From positions 1 to 57,084 of the IMG/VR virus record IMGVR_UViG_3300032240_001400: a DNA stretch of 57,084 bases. One strand, written 5' to 3'. Made by a program: the position numbers and the translations under genes. The stretch is from a virus. The notes under the pieces are model-generated. The model had not been told where the DNA came from. It was given only the letters and a program-made list of their open reading frames with translations, and ran no database searches. Shown here one piece after another: positions 26,251 to 45,865 of the stretch (position 1 is the first letter of the stretch; each line of letters begins with the position of its first letter).

Positions 26251-27036
26251 ATGATTAAGCTACTAGATTTGTTAAATGAAATAAAGGGCCAACCAAAAGC
26301 CATTATTATGGCTGGTGGAGCTGGTGCAGGTAAGTCAACCTTTGCTAATCAGATAAAGTCTGATATTAAAAAAGCAGGCTGGGAAGAACTTAATGCCGAT
26401 AAATACGTAGAAGACCAAGATAGTCCTATGTATAATAATCTAGGCAAAGCATCTAGCCAGATAGAGAAGGTCGATCTTCCTAATGCTATCAATTCTGGCA
26501 AAAGCTTTATTTATGATACTACAGGAACTAATGTTCAAAGAGTTCAAAATATAGTAGACTCAGGATATGATCCTATGATGGTCATGGTATATACTAATCC
26601 TATTGTTAGCTTTATGCGTAACTTCAAACGTGAAAGAAAAGTACCAACTGTAGGAGTTTTAACAAGTTGGAATAACGTTTATAAGAATATAGAGGCATAC
26701 AAAAGTATGTTTGGAAACAACTTCTATCTTGTTCAGTCAGACATGTCTCCTGAAGAAAATAAGATGGTTAATAAATTTGAAAAGGCTTATAAATCTGGTA
26801 AATTAAAAGAGTTCTTTGAAGATCTTCTTTCATCTGGCCAGTTTAAATCTACATTCAGAAAAGAGCCAGGAAAAGAAAAAACTCCTGAAGAATTAGCCAA
26901 ATCTAAAGCATTAGTAGATAAGCAGATAGATATACTTTCAGATCAGTTTGATAATATAGAAAATCAAGTAGAACAGTTAAAGAGTTCTAATATGAACCAA
27001 GTTGTGACTAAAGCTAAATCATTTATAAAGTCATGA
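26251..27036 (+). CDS. Zeta-toxin/PNK-like P-loop kinase with capsid-targeting-type leader
   Basis: This P-loop kinase has Walker A GGAGAGKS at 22-29, a 'LNADKYVE' Asp as in zeta-type kinases, 'SFIYDTTGTNVQR' and an Arg-rich lid (FMRNFKRERKVP). Zeta-like enzymes phosphorylate UDP-sugars; relatives act on polynucleotides or small molecules. The first 11 residues, MIKLLDLLNE|I, form a short amphipathic helix ending L-N-E, the pattern of T4 capsid-targeting sequences cut by gp21. The C-terminus (195-261) is a helical extension. It overlaps the next gene by ATGA. Substrate unknown. Confidence 0.75.
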   Translation: MIKLLDLLNEIKGQPKAIIMAGGAGAGKSTFANQIKSDIKKAGWEELNADKYVEDQDSPMYNNLGKASSQIEKVDLPNAINSGKSFIYDTTGTNVQRVQNIVDSGYDPMMVMVYTNPIVSFMRNFKRERKVPTVGVLTSWNNVYKNIEAYKSMFGNNFYLVQSDMSPEENKMVNKFEKAYKSGKLKEFFEDLLSSGQFKSTFRKEPGKEKTPEELAKSKALVDKQIDILSDQFDNIENQVEQLKSSNMNQVVTKAKSFIKS

Positions 27037-27623
27037 TTAATATAGAACACATAACAAACGAAATCGTAAGAGATATATTGAATGAAGCATCTCCGGATGT
27101 TGGACCTTGCTTTTATCCTGGTAAATTTAAACCTCCTCATAAAGGACATTTTGCAGCAGCACAATACCTCGCATCTCAAAATTATATAAACAGAGTATAT
27201 GTTATTATTTCTAACGTTACTAAGTATGGGATTACTCCTCAAGACTCTCTATACATTTGGCAACAGTATCTCAATGCAGAACCGAATCCTAAAATTAGTG
27301 TATCAATTTCTCAAGAATCCACTCCTATAAAAGACATTTTTTCTTTCATAGCAGAGAATCCAGATGTTGACCCAATCTATGTTGCAGCAGCTCAAGAAGA
27401 AGTAGAAGGTGAAGGATATTTCAATAATATGCAAAAAAGGTTTCCTGGTAAAATAAGACCGGTTACAATACCAGATCAGTTTGGTAGAATATCTGCAACT
27501 CAAATGAGAGATACAATAAAGACAGGAGACTTTGAAAAGTTTTCAAATTTTATACCTGATGCTGCATATAATAAAGGAGCTGCTAAAGATATATTTGGAA
27601 GGCTATTGAAAATAATGAAATGA
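27033..27623 (+). CDS. NMNAT-like nucleotidyltransferase with LxE leader
   Basis: The catalytic signature of the nucleotidyltransferase (HxGH) superfamily is clear: 'GKFKPPHKGHF' at 30-40, and the second nucleotide-binding motif 'ISATQMR' at 153-159 (ISSTxxR class). Members include NMN adenylyltransferase, pantetheine-phosphate adenylyltransferase and cytidylyltransferases. The 196-residue size fits the NMNAT/archaeal NadM type. Residues 1-18 end in DILNE|AS, a good prohead-protease site. Coupled by ATGA to the kinase before and the fusion gene after. Which nucleotide it makes is not decided by the sequence; NAD synthesis is the leading guess. Confidence 0.78.
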   Translation: MINIEHITNEIVRDILNEASPDVGPCFYPGKFKPPHKGHFAAAQYLASQNYINRVYVIISNVTKYGITPQDSLYIWQQYLNAEPNPKISVSISQESTPIKDIFSFIAENPDVDPIYVAAAQEEVEGEGYFNNMQKRFPGKIRPVTIPDQFGRISATQMRDTIKTGDFEKFSNFIPDAAYNKGAAKDIFGRLLKIMK

Positions 27624-28900
27624 AAGATAAATTAAGAGACGAAATAATTCAAGACTTCATAGAATTCTGTAAAGACAATTTAGGAATAGACACTCTTCCT
27701 GATATAAACTTTATAGAAGATAAAGCTTGGGTACTTGAAAGACACAGTTTTGGAGAGTACGATCCTAATAAAAAGTCTTTAGACGTTTATATTGGGAATA
27801 GAAATCTTGCTGATATATTAAGAACATTAGGTCATGAACTTGTTCATCACAAACAAAATGAGTTAGGTAGACTTAAAGTTAATTCTGGAAAGACAGGATC
27901 TAATATTGAAAATGAAGCTAATGCTAAAGCTGGAATATTAATGAGAGCTTATGGTAATGTAAATGAGTTGATATATGAAGCATTTACGCCAACTCTAACT
28001 CAGATATATGAAGCTGAGAATTCAAATGGACTTCAAATTTATTGTGACATGGATGGAGTTCTTTGTGACTTTGATTCAAGATTTGAACATTTTTATGGAG
28101 TACTTCCAAGAGAGTATTATGGAGAGAAAGGTTCAAAAGCATTTGAAGAGGCTGTAAATAAAGCTGGTATTGACTTCTGGTCCAAAATGAATTGGATGCC
28201 TGGAGGTCAAGAACTCTGGTCTATTATAGGTAAATATAAACCATATATTCTAACCAGTCCTAGCAAGTTTGAATTTGCAAAGGAAGGCAAGAAACAGTGG
28301 ATTCAAAAGCACCTTAATCCTCAGCCTAAAAAGATTTTATTTGCTCAGACTGGAGATAAACATTCTATGATGACTGCTGATCCAAAAAATTCTATGTTAA
28401 TAGATGACTATTGGCCAAACCTCGCTCCATGGAAAGCATTAGGTGGTATAGCGATAATGCATAAAGATATAGATAAAACTAAAGATATATTAAGTAAATT
28501 CAGAATAAATGAGATTAGTTATCCTTCTTCAAAACATGACGTTATTCGTGATGAGGAGGATAATAGTCTGATAACTGTTGAGTATACTTTTAAAACAAAA
28601 GAAAATAAGTATAGAGTTGAAATATCTTCAATGGAAAAGGCTGGAGATTTTGAAGTGTCATTTGGTTTAGATACAAGAGGTTTTCATAAAATAGATACAT
28701 TTCAAATGACTGGTGAAGGAGATGCTAAAAACATTCTTGAGACAGTATCTAATATAATTAATAAGTTTTATTACGATTATAAAAAAGACATAAATAAGAT
28801 TATAATTAAAGGAACATCTGAAAAAAGAAGTAGGGTGTATAAACAACTTCTACCTAAGTATATAGATCCAGAAGTATTAAAAAAGATTGAAATAGAATAA
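27620..28900 (+). CDS. Three-part fusion: HExxH metallopeptidase-like, HAD 5'-nucleotidase, C-terminal domain
   Basis: Residues 1-115: a small metallopeptidase-like domain with 'LGHELVHHKQNELG' (HELVH at 72-76) and a downstream Glu helix (NIENEANAKAG) as possible third ligand. Residues 138-295: a HAD domain of the NT5C/5'-deoxyribonucleotidase type, with 'YCDMDGVLCDFD' (Asp143, Asp145), 'ILTSPSK' and 'MLIDDYWPNLAPW'. Residues 310-426: a domain with 'FQMTGEGDAKNILETVSNII' seen in other phage internal proteins. Between parts one and two lie LIYE|A (120) and QIYE|A (131), two prohead-protease-type sites that could separate the enzymes. Substrates are inferred. Confidence 0.72.
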   Translation: MKDKLRDEIIQDFIEFCKDNLGIDTLPDINFIEDKAWVLERHSFGEYDPNKKSLDVYIGNRNLADILRTLGHELVHHKQNELGRLKVNSGKTGSNIENEANAKAGILMRAYGNVNELIYEAFTPTLTQIYEAENSNGLQIYCDMDGVLCDFDSRFEHFYGVLPREYYGEKGSKAFEEAVNKAGIDFWSKMNWMPGGQELWSIIGKYKPYILTSPSKFEFAKEGKKQWIQKHLNPQPKKILFAQTGDKHSMMTADPKNSMLIDDYWPNLAPWKALGGIAIMHKDIDKTKDILSKFRINEISYPSSKHDVIRDEEDNSLITVEYTFKTKENKYRVEISSMEKAGDFEVSFGLDTRGFHKIDTFQMTGEGDAKNILETVSNIINKFYYDYKKDINKIIIKGTSEKRSRVYKQLLPKYIDPEVLKKIEIE

Positions 28901-28904
28901 TGTT

Positions 28905-29483
28905 ATGATACCTAAAGAGTCTACGTTAAAAAAAGAATTCAAGAAAAGTGATGTACAAAGAATGAGAAACCTTATTACCGGTAAATCTGGTGATAAGACT
29001 CAAGTTTTAGGAGGATACGAAAAAACGCAAGAAGTACATAAAGAAGGAGACACCTGGGAAGAGGATGGAAAAAAATGGACCATTAGAAATGGGATAAAGC
29101 AGTCTATTACAAAGTTAGATAAGTTCAAAAAGATCCTTCATTTTCCTTTATGCTGTCCTAAATGTACAAAGCCTATGAAGGCTAATGAAGTGAATAAGAA
29201 GATCTACTCTATTCATGGAATGTGTCTTGACTGCTCTATAGAAATGGAAAGTAAACTTAAGCTAGAAGGGAAGTATGAGGAATATGAAAGAAATATCATA
29301 AATAATAATAAGAACGCTAGCCTTGAAGAGTTTGAAAGGGCTCTTGAATCTTGGTTGGTTGAAAAAGATACCTTCGTATCTGAAGATGGCGATATAGAAA
29401 ACTGGTCTGGTGGAGACAAGACTAAGATCTATGAAGAATTAAAAAGTAAGATAGAGGAACTAAAGAATACAGATATTTATTAG
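28905..29483 (+). CDS. Conserved zinc-binding phage protein (192 aa)
   Basis: The N-terminus 'MRNLITGKSGDKTQVLGGYE' and 'EGDTWEEDGKKWTIRNGIKQ' match a family widely found in large T4-like phages, of unknown function. Residues 82-112 hold two Cys pairs, 'CCPKC' and 'GMCLDC', likely a zinc ribbon. The C-terminal 70 residues are acidic and helical. It sits in the LxE-tagged cluster but lacks a clear leader itself. DNA- or RNA-binding is possible from the zinc site. Confidence 0.65.
   Translation: MIPKESTLKKEFKKSDVQRMRNLITGKSGDKTQVLGGYEKTQEVHKEGDTWEEDGKKWTIRNGIKQSITKLDKFKKILHFPLCCPKCTKPMKANEVNKKIYSIHGMCLDCSIEMESKLKLEGKYEEYERNIINNNKNASLEEFERALESWLVEKDTFVSEDGDIENWSGGDKTKIYEELKSKIEELKNTDIY
29473..29481 (+). 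promoter_or_regulatory. Late-type motif before 29498
   Basis: ATATTTATT overlaps the 3' end of the zinc-protein gene and ends 16 bases before the ATG at 29498, followed by AGTAAATTTATATAGT. Confidence 0.5.
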
Positions 29484-30729: not shown

Positions 30730-31058
30730 TGTACGAATTAAACGAAGGTGAATTTTGTCCTCAATGCCTAGCAGACTATATAAAAGAATGCTGGGACAAA
30801 CCTTTAGAGGAAGCTGAATATCACGGAAGAAAAGTAACTCTAGGTAAACCTTTCTTAACTCCAGATGGTCCTAAAAAGAGATCTGTATATGTTAAGAACG
30901 CTAAAGGAAACGTGGTTAAAGTAAACTTTGGACAAAAAGGAGTAGCAATAAAAAAACGTTTTCCTAATCATAGAAAGAGTTACAGGGCTAGACATCATTG
31001 TGACACTAATCCTGGACCTAAATGGAAAGCAAACTATTGGAGTTGTAGAGCATGGTAA
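30729..31058 (+). CDS. Conserved phage protein of the RARHxCD/PGPKWKA family (109 aa)
   Basis: Residues 29-109 form a compact conserved module: 'GKPFLTPDGPKKRSVYVKN' then 'NVVKVNFGQKG', 'KSYRARHHCD' and 'PGPKWKANYWSCRAW'. This is a family common in large marine phages, with conserved His/Cys that may bind metal. Residues 1-28 contain CPQC and end PLEE|A, a probable prohead-protease cut that would release the module. The biochemical function is unknown. The start overlaps the previous stop by one base. Confidence 0.65.
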   Translation: MYELNEGEFCPQCLADYIKECWDKPLEEAEYHGRKVTLGKPFLTPDGPKKRSVYVKNAKGNVVKVNFGQKGVAIKKRFPNHRKSYRARHHCDTNPGPKWKANYWSCRAW

Positions 31059-31687
31059 AAGATAAAGAAATAGTGTGTAAGAATTGTGGATGGCATTGGA
31101 AGTTATCTGATGGAGGAAAAGATCCATATACTTGTCATAAATGCGGATATAATAATAAAGAAATGATAAAGCTTAAAGACATATTAAAAGAATTGGCTAA
31201 ATCTGATATTCATTACCAGAATATACTTCAATCTTTTAATGACGGAGATGCTAATACTAGAGATGAAATATCTAAACTAGTTTCTGGAAAGCCATATACT
31301 TTAGAAGATGATTTAGAAAGTATGGGTTATGAAGATGCCAAAGAAATAGAAATGGAGTTAGATCTTAATCCTTTAGAAGAATCATGCTGGGATGGATATC
31401 AACAGAAAGGTATGAAAAAGAAAGGGAATAAGATGGTTCCTAATTGTGTTAGAGTAAGTGAAGCAAAAAAGAAAAGTAAAATAAATCCTGCTTATCTTAC
31501 AAAAGATGCAGCGGCAATGAAGAAAGAGATCAATAGAGTTAAAAAGTTAAAATCTGATGATCCTTCTGCATACGGTAAATGGGAAGCGGATTATGCTGAC
31601 AAAGATAAGACTAAGAAATATAAGACAAAGAAAAGCGCAGCAACATCAGCATACGAAAAAAGATTCGGAAAGAAAGATGATAAATAA
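31052..31687 (+). CDS. Zinc-ribbon protein with internal capsid-targeting-like segment (211 aa)
   Basis: Residues 1-36 are a zinc ribbon (CKNCGW ... CHKCGY). Residues 38-48, MIKLKDILKE|L, look exactly like the N-terminal leaders of neighbouring tagged proteins, so the ribbon may be fused in front of a targeting peptide. Next come a helical region, 'PLEESCWDGYQQKGMKKKGN' with 'VPNCVRV', a widespread phage motif, and a Lys-rich C-terminal module (160-211). Several L-x-E sites would allow processing. A DNA-binding or internal role is inferred. Confidence 0.62.
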   Translation: MVKDKEIVCKNCGWHWKLSDGGKDPYTCHKCGYNNKEMIKLKDILKELAKSDIHYQNILQSFNDGDANTRDEISKLVSGKPYTLEDDLESMGYEDAKEIEMELDLNPLEESCWDGYQQKGMKKKGNKMVPNCVRVSEAKKKSKINPAYLTKDAAAMKKEINRVKKLKSDDPSAYGKWEADYADKDKTKKYKTKKSAATSAYEKRFGKKDDK

Positions 31688-40690: not shown

Positions 40691-41875
40691 ATGACAACAG
40701 CTAAACTATATCAGAAACACAAGGCAGGAGAAGTAAGCCGTGACCGCTTTTTATACGAAGTTAGACGTGATTCTAATCTTCCTTGGGTAACCAACATTAC
40801 ATCTTATACAGATGCTGTAAAGATACTTAAGAACAAAGGAATAATCAGCGAAGCAGATAATAATATTAAAGCTATTCCAGAAGTAGATAGGGTAAATCCA
40901 TACTTCTTAAAAAGAGGAGTAAATAAGCTTCTTGACAAAGAAGAAGAATTAGACAATCAATCTTATATTAAAGCTTTGAATAAAGCAGCTAAACAACTAT
41001 CTAAAAATCCTAAAGCATTTGACAAAGATATGTTTGCTGATGCTGAAGATGTAGAAAAAGAAGATAAAAAACTTGATCGTCAAGAAGTTAAAAAGAACAA
41101 CTTTGTCGATAAGAATAACGGGATGAAGAAAGTTAAAGTTAAATCTTTAAAAGAGGCGGTTTTAAAAGAACTTACTGATTCTTTAAAAAAAAAAGAGTCA
41201 ATTAACGAAGACTCACACTGGAACTATAATCTAGGTTCAGAAGTACACACTCCACAAGGCCCAGGTAAAGTAAAAGAAATTATAGGAAGTACTCTTACAG
41301 TAGAAATGCCAGATGGTAGTTTAGCAGACTATCAAATTAACACTATTGATCATCATACAGAAAAGGCTAATTCAAATACAGTTGATGAAGTGGATATGCC
41401 GTTTGCAAATGCTGCTTTGAAGCCTGAATATAAAATGAATAAAGACGGTCAAAGAGCAATTAGTCCTTCTGGTATAGAATTTAAAGTCGGTGATAAAGCC
41501 ATTGCTACAGATACAGGTGAAGAAATTCAAATCAAGAATTTTAAAATACAACAAGGAATAATTAGGGCAGGTTATTTTGATGGCATGGGTTATAACTATG
41601 TTGATATTGATGCTCTTGAAAAACCTAAATCTACTAATCCATGGGATAGTTTTAAAGGTAAAATGATTCCTGAAACTATTAAAAAGTTTATGGAAAAATA
41701 TAAGGATGATGACAAAAAGATGAGAGGGTTAAAAGAGGTTGTAAAAAGATTAAAAGAAGCAACTAAGTTTCATGCAGGAGGAGAAGTTATTTTTACAAAA
41801 GATTCTGATGCTATGGGATATGAAGCAGATTTAAAAAGAGCAGGTGTAAAATATACAAAAGAAAAAGTACAATAA
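40691..41875 (+). CDS. Large prohead-internal protein (394 aa)
   Basis: The N-terminus 'LYQKHKAGEVSRDRFLYEVR' is a conserved feature in this neighbourhood in related phages. The middle has L-x-E|A type sites (IISE54|A; SLKE|AV near 155; RLKE|AT near 358) and a small beta domain, 'LGSEVHTPQGPGKVKEIIG' (about 182-215), that looks SH3/KOW-like. The overall Lys/Glu/Asp-rich composition fits an internal core protein processed by the protease encoded next. Coupled to gp21 by a one-base overlap. Confidence 0.6.
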   Translation: MTTAKLYQKHKAGEVSRDRFLYEVRRDSNLPWVTNITSYTDAVKILKNKGIISEADNNIKAIPEVDRVNPYFLKRGVNKLLDKEEELDNQSYIKALNKAAKQLSKNPKAFDKDMFADAEDVEKEDKKLDRQEVKKNNFVDKNNGMKKVKVKSLKEAVLKELTDSLKKKESINEDSHWNYNLGSEVHTPQGPGKVKEIIGSTLTVEMPDGSLADYQINTIDHHTEKANSNTVDEVDMPFANAALKPEYKMNKDGQRAISPSGIEFKVGDKAIATDTGEEIQIKNFKIQQGIIRAGYFDGMGYNYVDIDALEKPKSTNPWDSFKGKMIPETIKKFMEKYKDDDKKMRGLKEVVKRLKEATKFHAGGEVIFTKDSDAMGYEADLKRAGVKYTKEKVQ

Positions 41876-42501
41876 TGTCTAAACAACTCTTAATAGAATA
41901 TCAGGCTTTCCAACCTCTTCCTCAATCTTTAAAAGAAGGAAGAAGACTTCCAAATGGAAATATGGTAGTGTCAGGTTTAGTGCAAGCTACTGATAAACCT
42001 AATGCTAATAAAAGAATCTATCCATATGTTACTTTATTTGCACAAGTACAAAATTATATAGCTGGACCTATTTCTGAAAATAGAGCGTTAGGAGAATTAG
42101 ATCATCCTGAATCTTCTGTTATTAATCTTAAGAACGTTAGTCATAATATAGTTAAGCTTTGGTGGGAAGGAAAAGATCTTTATGGAGATGTTGAAATACT
42201 ACCAACTCCATCAGGAAATATATTAAGGCAGTTATTTGAAAATAAAATCACTGTTGGTATTTCATCTAGAGCAATGGGTTCTGTTAGTCCTATAGGTGAA
42301 GGTCTTGTTCAAGTTGAAGATGATCTAGAACTTATTTGTTGGGACTTTGTTTCTACTCCATCTACTTATGGTGCGTATATGAGGCCTATAGGAGGATTGA
42401 ATGAGTCAATTGATTATAGTGTACCAAAAAATGTTAGTAAAGTTAACCAACTCATATCTGAGATCATATGCTCCCAGTCAGGAGTTTGTTGCATAAACTA
42501 A
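41875..42501 (+). CDS. gp21: Prohead protease, gp21-like
   Basis: This 208-residue serine-type prohead protease has 'NANKRIYPY', the catalytic-His region 'GELDHPESSVINLKNVSHNI' (His77, His90) and the catalytic-Ser region 'VGISSRAMGSV' (Ser130/131). T4 gp21 cuts after Glu in L/I-x-E during head maturation, destroying the core and trimming the capsid protein. It is followed by scaffold and capsid genes, as in T4. The C-terminus (CSQSGVCCIN) has three Cys, an unusual tail. Confidence 0.95.
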   Translation: MSKQLLIEYQAFQPLPQSLKEGRRLPNGNMVVSGLVQATDKPNANKRIYPYVTLFAQVQNYIAGPISENRALGELDHPESSVINLKNVSHNIVKLWWEGKDLYGDVEILPTPSGNILRQLFENKITVGISSRAMGSVSPIGEGLVQVEDDLELICWDFVSTPSTYGAYMRPIGGLNESIDYSVPKNVSKVNQLISEIICSQSGVCCIN

Positions 42502-44194: not shown

Positions 44195-45865
44195 ATGGCA
44201 AATTTAGTACAATCTTTATTGACTGAATCCGCTAAAACGGCTTTCTCTGATCAACATGGTGTTGCTCAGCGTCTTGCTAATAAGTGGGGTAAGTCTGGCC
44301 TTTTGGAAGGCCTTCAAGATTACGACGCAAATAACATGTCGGTAATTCTTGAGAACCAAGCTAAACAGCTTGTAGTTGAATCTTCTTCTACTAATGGTAA
44401 TGCTAACTCTGGTGGTGCAACCTTTACTCCTGGTACTGGTGAGCAGTGGGCTGGTGTAGCTCTTCCATTGGTTCGTAAGATCTTTGGTCAAATCGCATCT
44501 AAAGAGTTTGTTAGTGTACAGCCGATGAATCTTCCTGCTGGTTTGGTGTTCTATTTGGATTTCCAATATGGTAATACAAAAGCTCCATTCACTTCTGGTG
44601 ATTCTATCTATGGTACTCCAACAGCTAACTTTGGTAATGCCGCGGCTGGTGGTCTTTATGGAGCTGGTCGTTTTGGTTTCTCTTTGAACCAATTCTCAGC
44701 TTCTATCTTAGGTAATGCAACAGGATTTCTTTCATCTTCTGCAACATGGTATGATTTAGATTATGATGCAAACTATTCTGCTTCTGTAATTGCTAACCAA
44801 ATTGGTAAATTGCAAATCCCAACTTCATCATTGCCTTCTTACAATCCTGATGGTGTTCGTGCATTTACAATTGCTACAGGTTCTACATTTGTAGCTTCTG
44901 ATAACTTGCAACAATTTACTAACGTATCTTCAAGTGTAGCTGGTGTTTTTGTTAACTTCTTTGTTAATAAAGGATTCTCAGGTAGTGCATCATCACTATA
45001 TGTAATCAACTATAATAAGCTTACAGACTTTAACACACGTGGTGATTTTGAAGATCGCACAGGTAACCCTTCAGTTCCAAACAGTCTTTCTAATACTTCT
45101 ATCGTTATCCCTGAGATCAACGTACAAATGAAGAGCCAAACCATTTCTGCTAAAACTCGTAAGTTGAAAGCACAATGGACTCCAGAATTTGCACAAGATC
45201 TTAACGCCTACCACTCTCTTGACGCTGAAGCTGAATTGACAGGTCTACTTTCTGAGCACATCTCTTTGGAGATTGATTTGGAAGTTCTTGACATGTTGAT
45301 CAGCAACGCTCCAACTATTGAGTACTGGTCAGCTAAAGTTGGTCAGCAAATCGGCGTAACTCCTACTTCTGGATTTACTTCTAACACTGCTGGTGTTTAT
45401 TACACTCAAATGAGTTGGTTCCAAACTTTGGGTATCAAACTTCAAAAAGTATCTAACATCATTCATCAAAGAACTCTCCGTGGTGGTGCAAACTTCATGG
45501 TAGTTTCTCCAACTGTAGCTACTATCTTGGAATCAATCCCAGGATTTGCTGCTGATACTGATGGTGCAGCTGATACAATGAAGTATGCTTTTGGTGTACA
45601 AAAAATTGGCCAATTGAATAGCCGTTATAAAGTTTATAAGAATCCTTACATGACTGAGAACGCAATACTTCTTGGTTTCCGTGGTAATCAGTTCTTAGAG
45701 TGCGGTGCGGTTTATTCTCCATACGTTCCATTGATCATGACTCCACTTGTGTACGATCCAAATACCTTCACTCCAAGAAAAGGTATCATGACTCGTTACG
45801 CAATGACTATGGTACGTCCTGAATTTTATGGTTTGGTATTGGTAGCTGATACTAACGTTATCTAA
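44195..45865 (+). CDS. gp23: Major capsid protein, gp23-like
   Basis: This 556-residue protein has a gp23-type N-terminal propeptide (MANLVQSLLTESAKTAFSDQ, about 62 residues) ending LVVE62|SSS, a good prohead-protease site close to the T4 cut at residue 65. The HK97-like fold follows, with 'PLVRKIFGQIASKEFVSVQP', 'KSQTISAKTRKLKAQWTPEF', 'LSEHISLEIDLEVL', 'GGANFMVVSPTVATILES' and 'TPRKGIMTRYAM'. It forms the hexamers of the shell. Codon use is more G+C-rich than neighbours, as expected for the most abundant protein. Two hairpins follow the stop. Confidence 0.97.
   Translation: MANLVQSLLTESAKTAFSDQHGVAQRLANKWGKSGLLEGLQDYDANNMSVILENQAKQLVVESSSTNGNANSGGATFTPGTGEQWAGVALPLVRKIFGQIASKEFVSVQPMNLPAGLVFYLDFQYGNTKAPFTSGDSIYGTPTANFGNAAAGGLYGAGRFGFSLNQFSASILGNATGFLSSSATWYDLDYDANYSASVIANQIGKLQIPTSSLPSYNPDGVRAFTIATGSTFVASDNLQQFTNVSSSVAGVFVNFFVNKGFSGSASSLYVINYNKLTDFNTRGDFEDRTGNPSVPNSLSNTSIVIPEINVQMKSQTISAKTRKLKAQWTPEFAQDLNAYHSLDAEAELTGLLSEHISLEIDLEVLDMLISNAPTIEYWSAKVGQQIGVTPTSGFTSNTAGVYYTQMSWFQTLGIKLQKVSNIIHQRTLRGGANFMVVSPTVATILESIPGFAADTDGAADTMKYAFGVQKIGQLNSRYKVYKNPYMTENAILLGFRGNQFLECGAVYSPYVPLIMTPLVYDPNTFTPRKGIMTRYAMTMVRPEFYGLVLVADTNVI

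Follow-up and report, generated by a model that had tools for sequence, protein, structure and literature searches.

A putative fusion of head-cargo enzymes with leader relics at its junctions in a phage encoding a gp21-type protease

Introduction

In bacteriophage T4, leaders of 10-19 residues direct the internal proteins to the core and are then removed, and for IPIII residues 4 and 7 have been reported as the chief determinants of targeting, and residues 8 and 10 as those of processing (PMC9026906). Another described group, the polyvalent proteins, combines a zincin with effector domains and has been likened to polyproteins (PMC5512222). Head proteins tagged with a leader and multi-domain effectors of the polyvalent type are already known kinds; what we did not find described in the literature covered is a C-terminal or internal position of the leader, the function of which should be taken as a lead from sequence.

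We analysed a window of 57,084 nucleotides (the whole stretch of DNA under study, positions 1 to 57,084 of IMG/VR virus record IMGVR_UViG_3300032240_001400), together with relatives from IMG/VR (80 loci, and those of scans for the nucleotidase and DUF6934), given below by handles of the type L008. It would be logical to suggest, with a probability of about 0.6, that the gene at 27620-28900 is a head-cargo fusion which carries relics of leaders at its junctions and may be cut by a gp21-type protease. The parts of this reading deserve different trust: the fusion with leader relics is highly probable from the comparison of sequences, and actual cutting of the chain is a tentative proposal, with the balance slightly against it.

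Results

An earlier note on this DNA had described one gene with an HELVH domain, a HAD 5'-nucleotidase and a third C-terminal domain, and our analysis confirms it with exact coordinates (Table 1), the third domain being DUF6934, whose profile PF22028 covers residues 322-416 at 39.3 bits, above its cut-off of 27. Full-length homologues in L006-L008 share 80-83% identity with the 426-residue protein, and L171 has the three domains as well. Structure prediction of the parts, which the earlier note had proposed as a check, bears out this division: AF2 gives three confident domains with low-confidence junctions (pLDDT blocks of 54 and 67 at residues 121-140, and below 50 at 297-303), and the first linker is predicted to be flexible. 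A Foldseek search with the whole 426-residue model was set aside, as it returned HAD-type matches only, along with alignments to epoxide hydrolase that span several domains and are misleading.

Table 1. Positions of the fusion gene, its parts and related features (window coordinates unless a locus is named; a slash marks a candidate cut)
Feature	Position	Strand	Basis
Zeta-toxin-like P-loop kinase, leader MIKLLDLLNE/I	26251..27036	+	PF06414, 1.3e-10
NMN adenylyltransferase-like protein, leader ...IVRDILNE/A (residue 18)	27033..27623	+	phrog_395 cytidyltransferase, 4.4e-7
Fusion protein, 426 aa, peptidase - HAD nucleotidase - DUF6934	27620..28900	+	ORF list; full-length homologues L006-L008
Zincin-like peptidase domain, residues 1-120 (HELVH 72-76, E97)	27620..27979	+	Invariant residues, AF2, Foldseek
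Site 1, I118-Y119-E120, possible cut E120/A121	27971..27979	+	Conserved C-terminal end of the peptidase domain
Site 2, PTLTQIYE (124-131), possible cut E131/A132	27989..28012	+	Probable relic of the nucleotidase N-terminal leader
HAD 5'-nucleotidase domain, residues 138-296	28031..28507	+	phrog_2643 match; D143xD145, T212, D262-D263
Second junction, RINE (295-298)	28502..28513	+	HAD C-terminus and probable last DUF6934 leader residue(s)
DUF6934 domain, residues 299-426	28514..28897	+	PF22028, 8.5e-10
gp21-type head maturation protease	41875..42501	+	phrog_207, 8.1e-47
gp23-type major capsid protein	44195..45865	+	phrog_138, 1.6e-68
Stand-alone peptidases with C-terminal leader	L023-L050, e.g. 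L044:1655-2062

In the peptidase domain, modelled with a pLDDT of 90.8, residues H72, E73, H76 and E97 are invariant across 25 relatives. Foldseek places this model near abylysin, selecase, IrrE and Wss1 (TM 0.46-0.60, with E only 0.017 to 0.3); a PDB sequence search gave no significant match, and in Pfam no family rose above its cut-off, with weak links only to M78, DUF6782 and DUF6647 and no match to a named polyvalent metallopeptidase family. The nucleotidase domain matches phrog_2643 (5'-3' deoxyribonucleotidase) at 7e-27, and Pfam NT5C at 21.8 bits, under the cut-off of 24.8, and all its HAD catalytic motifs are intact. Judged by these residues, both domains look active.

One may ask whether such a protein processes itself, that is, whether it is a polyvalent protein in which, upon injection, the cutting of the chain or of proteins of the host falls to the zincin-like domain and not to gp21. 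Its fold and the invariant HEXXH and E97 agree with this suggestion, as does the published proposal that polyvalent proteins undergo processing by the zincins they contain (PMC5512222). It is weakened by the fact that stand-alone peptidases, which have nothing to process, are common. Nor is any preference of zincins for a [LI]xE motif known, which counts against the suggestion too, and on the whole we consider self-processing quite improbable.

The modules of the fusion are found in many arrangements. In Synechococcus phage B23 the peptidase is a protein of its own and starts with MNYKQFLRE/S; in immuto the peptidase is joined to the adenylyltransferase (gp088) and the nucleotidase (gp087, with a leader ...LLLE/E) stands alone, as it does in HTVC008M and Melnitz. 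Peptidase-nucleotidase fusions without DUF6934 occur in L009-L020, and many other relatives are stand-alone peptidases. In L084 the order is adenylyltransferase-peptidase-DUF6934-nucleotidase, as opposed to peptidase-nucleotidase-DUF6934 in the window, and the fusion state of the nucleotidase changes at least 7 times on a tree that is weakly supported, with poorly resolved forks. Such shuffling of modules and repeated changes of fusion are what one would expect of units that are independent of each other, and not of an enzyme complex with a fixed composition. Two side observations concern the same loci: the fusions L084:3008-5407 and L083:3008-5410, of 800 aa, both have the order just given for L084, with an extra segment between adenylyltransferase and peptidase, and directly downstream of the former lies one more DUF6934 gene, which bears a leader itself. 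We also noticed that in most relatives (L001, L021, L025, L028, L039) the peptidase/nucleotidase block is followed by a gene with an LKKEF...RMRN N-terminus, located at 28905-29483 in the window, for which we found no family match.

Most stand-alone nucleotidases carry a leader, for example MIKLLDILKE/AEEQQYKIYCDMDG or MYKLTDLYKQIKE/EA...QYKIYCDMDG; stand-alone DUF6934 proteins start with MIKLLDILKE/ISYSFSEYD and the kinases of relatives with MIKLLDLLLE/A. The kinase of the window has the best leader score in it, and its leader is kept in relatives; the adenylyltransferase-like protein has a 20-residue leader ending in [LI]xE followed by A, G or V in most close relatives. Of 2210 N-terminal Glu, 114 reached a leader score of at least 10; of 28735 internal Glu, 28 did so, and several of these 28 are at likely internal starts. 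The first figure is partly obtained by construction, as the leader profile was partly trained on the leaders counted. According to our analysis the leaders resemble the capsid-targeting sequences of T4, by analogy with which they may direct their proteins to the head.

The genes of the kinase and the adenylyltransferase (26251-27623), both leader-bearing, adjoin the fusion gene on its upstream side; taken with the nucleotidase, they would suggest a nucleotide or NAD-related cargo set. Elsewhere in the window MIKLKDILKE/L, to all appearance a perfect leader with a score of 22.9, was noticed at 31163-31192, which corresponds to residues 38-47 of the ORF 31052-31687 (+), after a zinc-ribbon-like start; translation may in fact begin at Met38, or else we have here one more leader in an internal position.

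It might be argued that we deal with an early or metabolic fusion enzyme that has no connection with the head, its apparent leaders being nothing but common N-terminal helices, the more so since the likeness to the T4 sequences is one of sequence resemblance only. Such an interpretation appears improbable, given that the same type of leader, strongly N-terminal, stands on unrelated folds (kinase, HAD and DUF6934) and that these genes share a strand with those for terminase, portal and capsid, upstream of which they lie.

Returning to the fusion as head cargo, we note that the chain opens straight into the peptidase domain and has at its N-terminus no leader of the expected kind (about 10-20 residues, with [LI]xE as the last ones). 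LIYE/A (120) and QIYE/A (131) are present in the first linker exactly as the earlier note had them. In their number there is no excess, as 2 strict [LI]xE[AGS] motifs are found in the whole fusion against 0.98 expected (P 0.26); that both fall inside residues 113-140 has a P of about 0.0014, for a region picked after the motifs were seen. A third motif of the broad rule, AFEE/A (177), is within the folded HAD domain, and a third [IL]xE, RINE/I (Glu 298), absent from the earlier note, is located at the second junction.

What these sites correspond to can be suggested from the separate proteins. IYE at 118-120 is at least 90% conserved across the peptidases, including stand-alone ones, whatever follows it: L053 stops at this position as ...NPQIYE and L021 as ...NNEIYQ, and others continue as IYE/EVQY or IYE/DYENT. 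Since IYE is kept even where the protein stops there, site 120 should be regarded as the end of the peptidase domain. Glu 131, in its turn, ranks first of the 34 Glu of the fusion with a profile built from stand-alone HAD leaders only (and first in 7 of 8 close fusions, second in L017), which identifies site 131 as a probable counterpart of the nucleotidase leader. With a profile trained on kinase and DUF6934 leaders, sites 120 and 131 are not above background, 22-23% of background Glu equalling them, which counts against the leader reading, although several genuine HAD leaders score likewise low on it. At the second junction the natural end of the nucleotidase, ...SKFRIK in L009, L011 and L013, appears to be joined as RINE/I to the point where the stand-alone DUF6934 starts after its leader. 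A separate internal start for the nucleotidase was considered and rejected, the linker having no ATG or GTG and its sole TTG (Leu117) sitting in the peptidase end.

Across nine close fusions pN is 0 for IYE 118-120, and pN/pS is 0.15 for the core 125-131 against 0.71 and 0.66 in its flanks. By these values both IYE cores, including the Glu and the P3 Ile, are under purifying selection within a drifting linker of low model confidence. The residues after each cut Glu (P1') fall in drifting parts: in the nine fusions they are A, S, H, I or T at site 1 and A, V or E at site 2, I-x-E being kept at both, and among homologues V, E, M, H or I occur in this position, be it after a single one of the two Glu or after each of them. 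The aligned sequences thus point to I-x-E cores constrained by something and to a strict gp21 P1' rule which is not. An association of a small P1' with the presence of a part to be cut off (40/50 against 0/15 rows) was discarded, because it comes down to just 1-2 independent pairs on the tree.

The earlier note had named homologues that keep the fusion and lose both sites as the observation that would speak against its polyprotein, and what was found lies halfway: L008 (MIYE/H, QIYE/V) and L017 (LIYE/I, DIYE/E) keep the fusion and conform to the strict gp21 rule at neither site, and yet retain I-Y-E. In L019 the second site is gone in this form, and the other HAD fusions (L089-L099) have no leader relic. 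Together with the drift of P1' and the lack of an N-terminal leader on the chain, the broken rule and the leader dropped altogether by other fusions lend themselves to another view, that the motifs at the junctions are no more than what was inherited from leaders and from the ends of domains, in an intact multidomain enzyme that acts uncut, either within the head or in the cell during infection. We take this view seriously and still doubt it, because the two IYE cores are far better conserved than the linker around them, and because the permuted order of L084 (peptidase-DUF6934-HAD) speaks against a fixed intramolecular arrangement.

Unexpectedly, a sister group of stand-alone peptidases (17 distinct tails) possesses no N-terminal leader and has one at the C-terminus, directly after IYE/S. 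The tails read ...IYE/SKSLKLIDILKE/IKK or ...IYE/SESLKLGNILKE/IKRK at the end of the protein, an example of the leader at this end being SKSLKLIDILKEIKK. With a profile trained on unrelated N-terminal leaders these C-terminal ones score 13-23 and rank first in their own proteins; a score of at least 16 is found for none of 17,966 internal Glu without a nearby Met, against four distinct C-terminal Glu, all of the sister-peptidase family. The tail has a pN/pS of 0.21, which indicates purifying selection. In L175 the peptidase runs via the leader into the nucleotidase, IYE/SKLHKILNE/VISNTYTIYSDMDG. A separate observation is that in L027:1582-2370 and L046:4001-4777 the peptidase is joined through an intact internal leader (SLKLMDLLME/VKKK) to another domain, which has no Pfam match.

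On the tree, weakly supported, the clade of the fusion is sister to the peptidases with the C-terminal leader. From this position and from the tails themselves, the linker of the fusion is best read as a diverged leader element between the peptidase and its follower. The position of the tag may then be flexible, and the linker may be an internal tag cut twice. In its strongest form this would mean that, in this group of T4-like phages of Bacteroidota type, the capsid-targeting leader is untied from the N-terminus and cut on both sides by the head protease, so that the tag is excised, the enzymes are freed and the whole is a true head-processed polyprotein, which we regard as rather unlikely. 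In the literature covered, outside which most subscription papers lie, we found no report of a capsid-targeting leader at a C-terminus or internal to a fusion, nor of head-processed enzyme fusions.

Besides the protease and the capsid protein of Table 1, the window encodes a portal and a large terminase; the fusion gene lies upstream of the terminase, portal and capsid genes and on the same strand. The capsid protein is closest to those of Flavobacterium phage immuto (52%), Microcystis phage Mel-JY01 (49%) and Rhodothermus phage RM378 (33%), and from these affinities the host is probably in Bacteroidota. Its residues 56-62, AKQLVVE (44360-44380), are nearly invariant and the next residue is variable, and AKQLVVE/S, with Glu 62, is a likely cut of the capsid protein by the head protease. 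In the aligned relatives the residue after Glu 62 is S, A, T, Q or N, and V, E, H and I were not seen; this variety suggests that the P1' preference of the clade may extend beyond A/G/S.

Discussion

We propose that the gene has arisen by fusion of three head-cargo proteins which are separate in relatives: the zincin-like peptidase, the HAD 5'-nucleotidase and DUF6934. On fusing, the end of the peptidase (IYE, 118-120), the leader of the nucleotidase (PTLTQIYE, 124-131) and the last residue or residues of the DUF6934 leader (E298) would have been left at the junctions. The chain would enter the prohead, where the gp21-type protease may cut it at 131 and, less certainly, at 120 and 298, and cutting would free modules near their stand-alone mature forms. 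Cuts of the 49.3-kDa chain at 120 and 131 would give computed fragments of 13.8, 1.3 and 34.3 kDa, and an added cut at 298 would split the 34.3-kDa part into 19.3 and 15.0 kDa.

The existence of separate proteins, the leaders they share, the matching of the junctions to leaders and ends, the selection on IYE and the gp21-type protease are all shown by sequence, whereas head targeting by the leaders and the packaging and ejection of the cargo are what we infer. The main difficulty for cutting is that the chain is without an N-terminal leader and that the internal one is degenerate; judging by the tails of the sister peptidases, function of an internal leader is possible. Of the polyprotein of the earlier note, separable enzymes, a gp21-type protease, a linker predicted to be flexible and a selected Glu and P3 Ile stand. 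Its use of site 120 as a feature of the linker does not, this site being the conserved C-terminal IYE of the peptidase, which is also followed by E or D.

A whole set of enzymes (adenylyltransferase, kinase, zincin, nucleotidase and DUF6934) seems to bear tags of T4 type and to have been fused repeatedly, with tags or their remnants at some of the junctions. In T4-like phages the head-cargo tag is a short N-terminal leader, and one group of peptidases here has it at the C-terminus. Should the tag be functional in positions other than the N-terminal one, the prediction of head cargo in environmental phages would change, and multi-effector phage proteins could be split by a second route, besides embedded zincins. 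The analysis also provides, from sequence, a testable list of enzymes which are candidates for injection.

Comparison with known systems

The peptidase domain shares HEXXH and a downstream Glu with minigluzincins (abylysin, selecase), IrrE/ImmA and Wss1 zincins, although Foldseek E stays above 0.001 and no PDB sequence match is significant. The nucleotidase has the HAD core with the DxD and DD motifs of phrog_2643/NT5C 5'(3')-deoxyribonucleotidases and differs in being fused at both ends and falling under the Pfam NT5C cut-off.

As in polyvalent proteins (PMC5512222), several effector domains including a zincin-like peptidase are combined, in a block of same-strand genes that also holds the head genes, and with shuffling of modules; since a zincin is already paired there with effector domains, the view of the earlier note that such a protein would be unusual for a tailed phage was overstated. 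The fusion differs in its small size (426 aa) and in its candidate processor, which is the head protease acting at leader relics and not only a built-in zincin. With the T4 internal proteins IPI-III (PMC9026906, PMC12373910) this phage shares leaders of 10-20 residues, ending in hydrophobic-x-Glu, on unrelated, non-homologous cargo, and a gp21-type protease in the genome. The differences from T4 are that the fusion has a degenerate leader inside the chain, that its putative cargo domains are joined together, and that in the sister proteins the leader is C-terminal.
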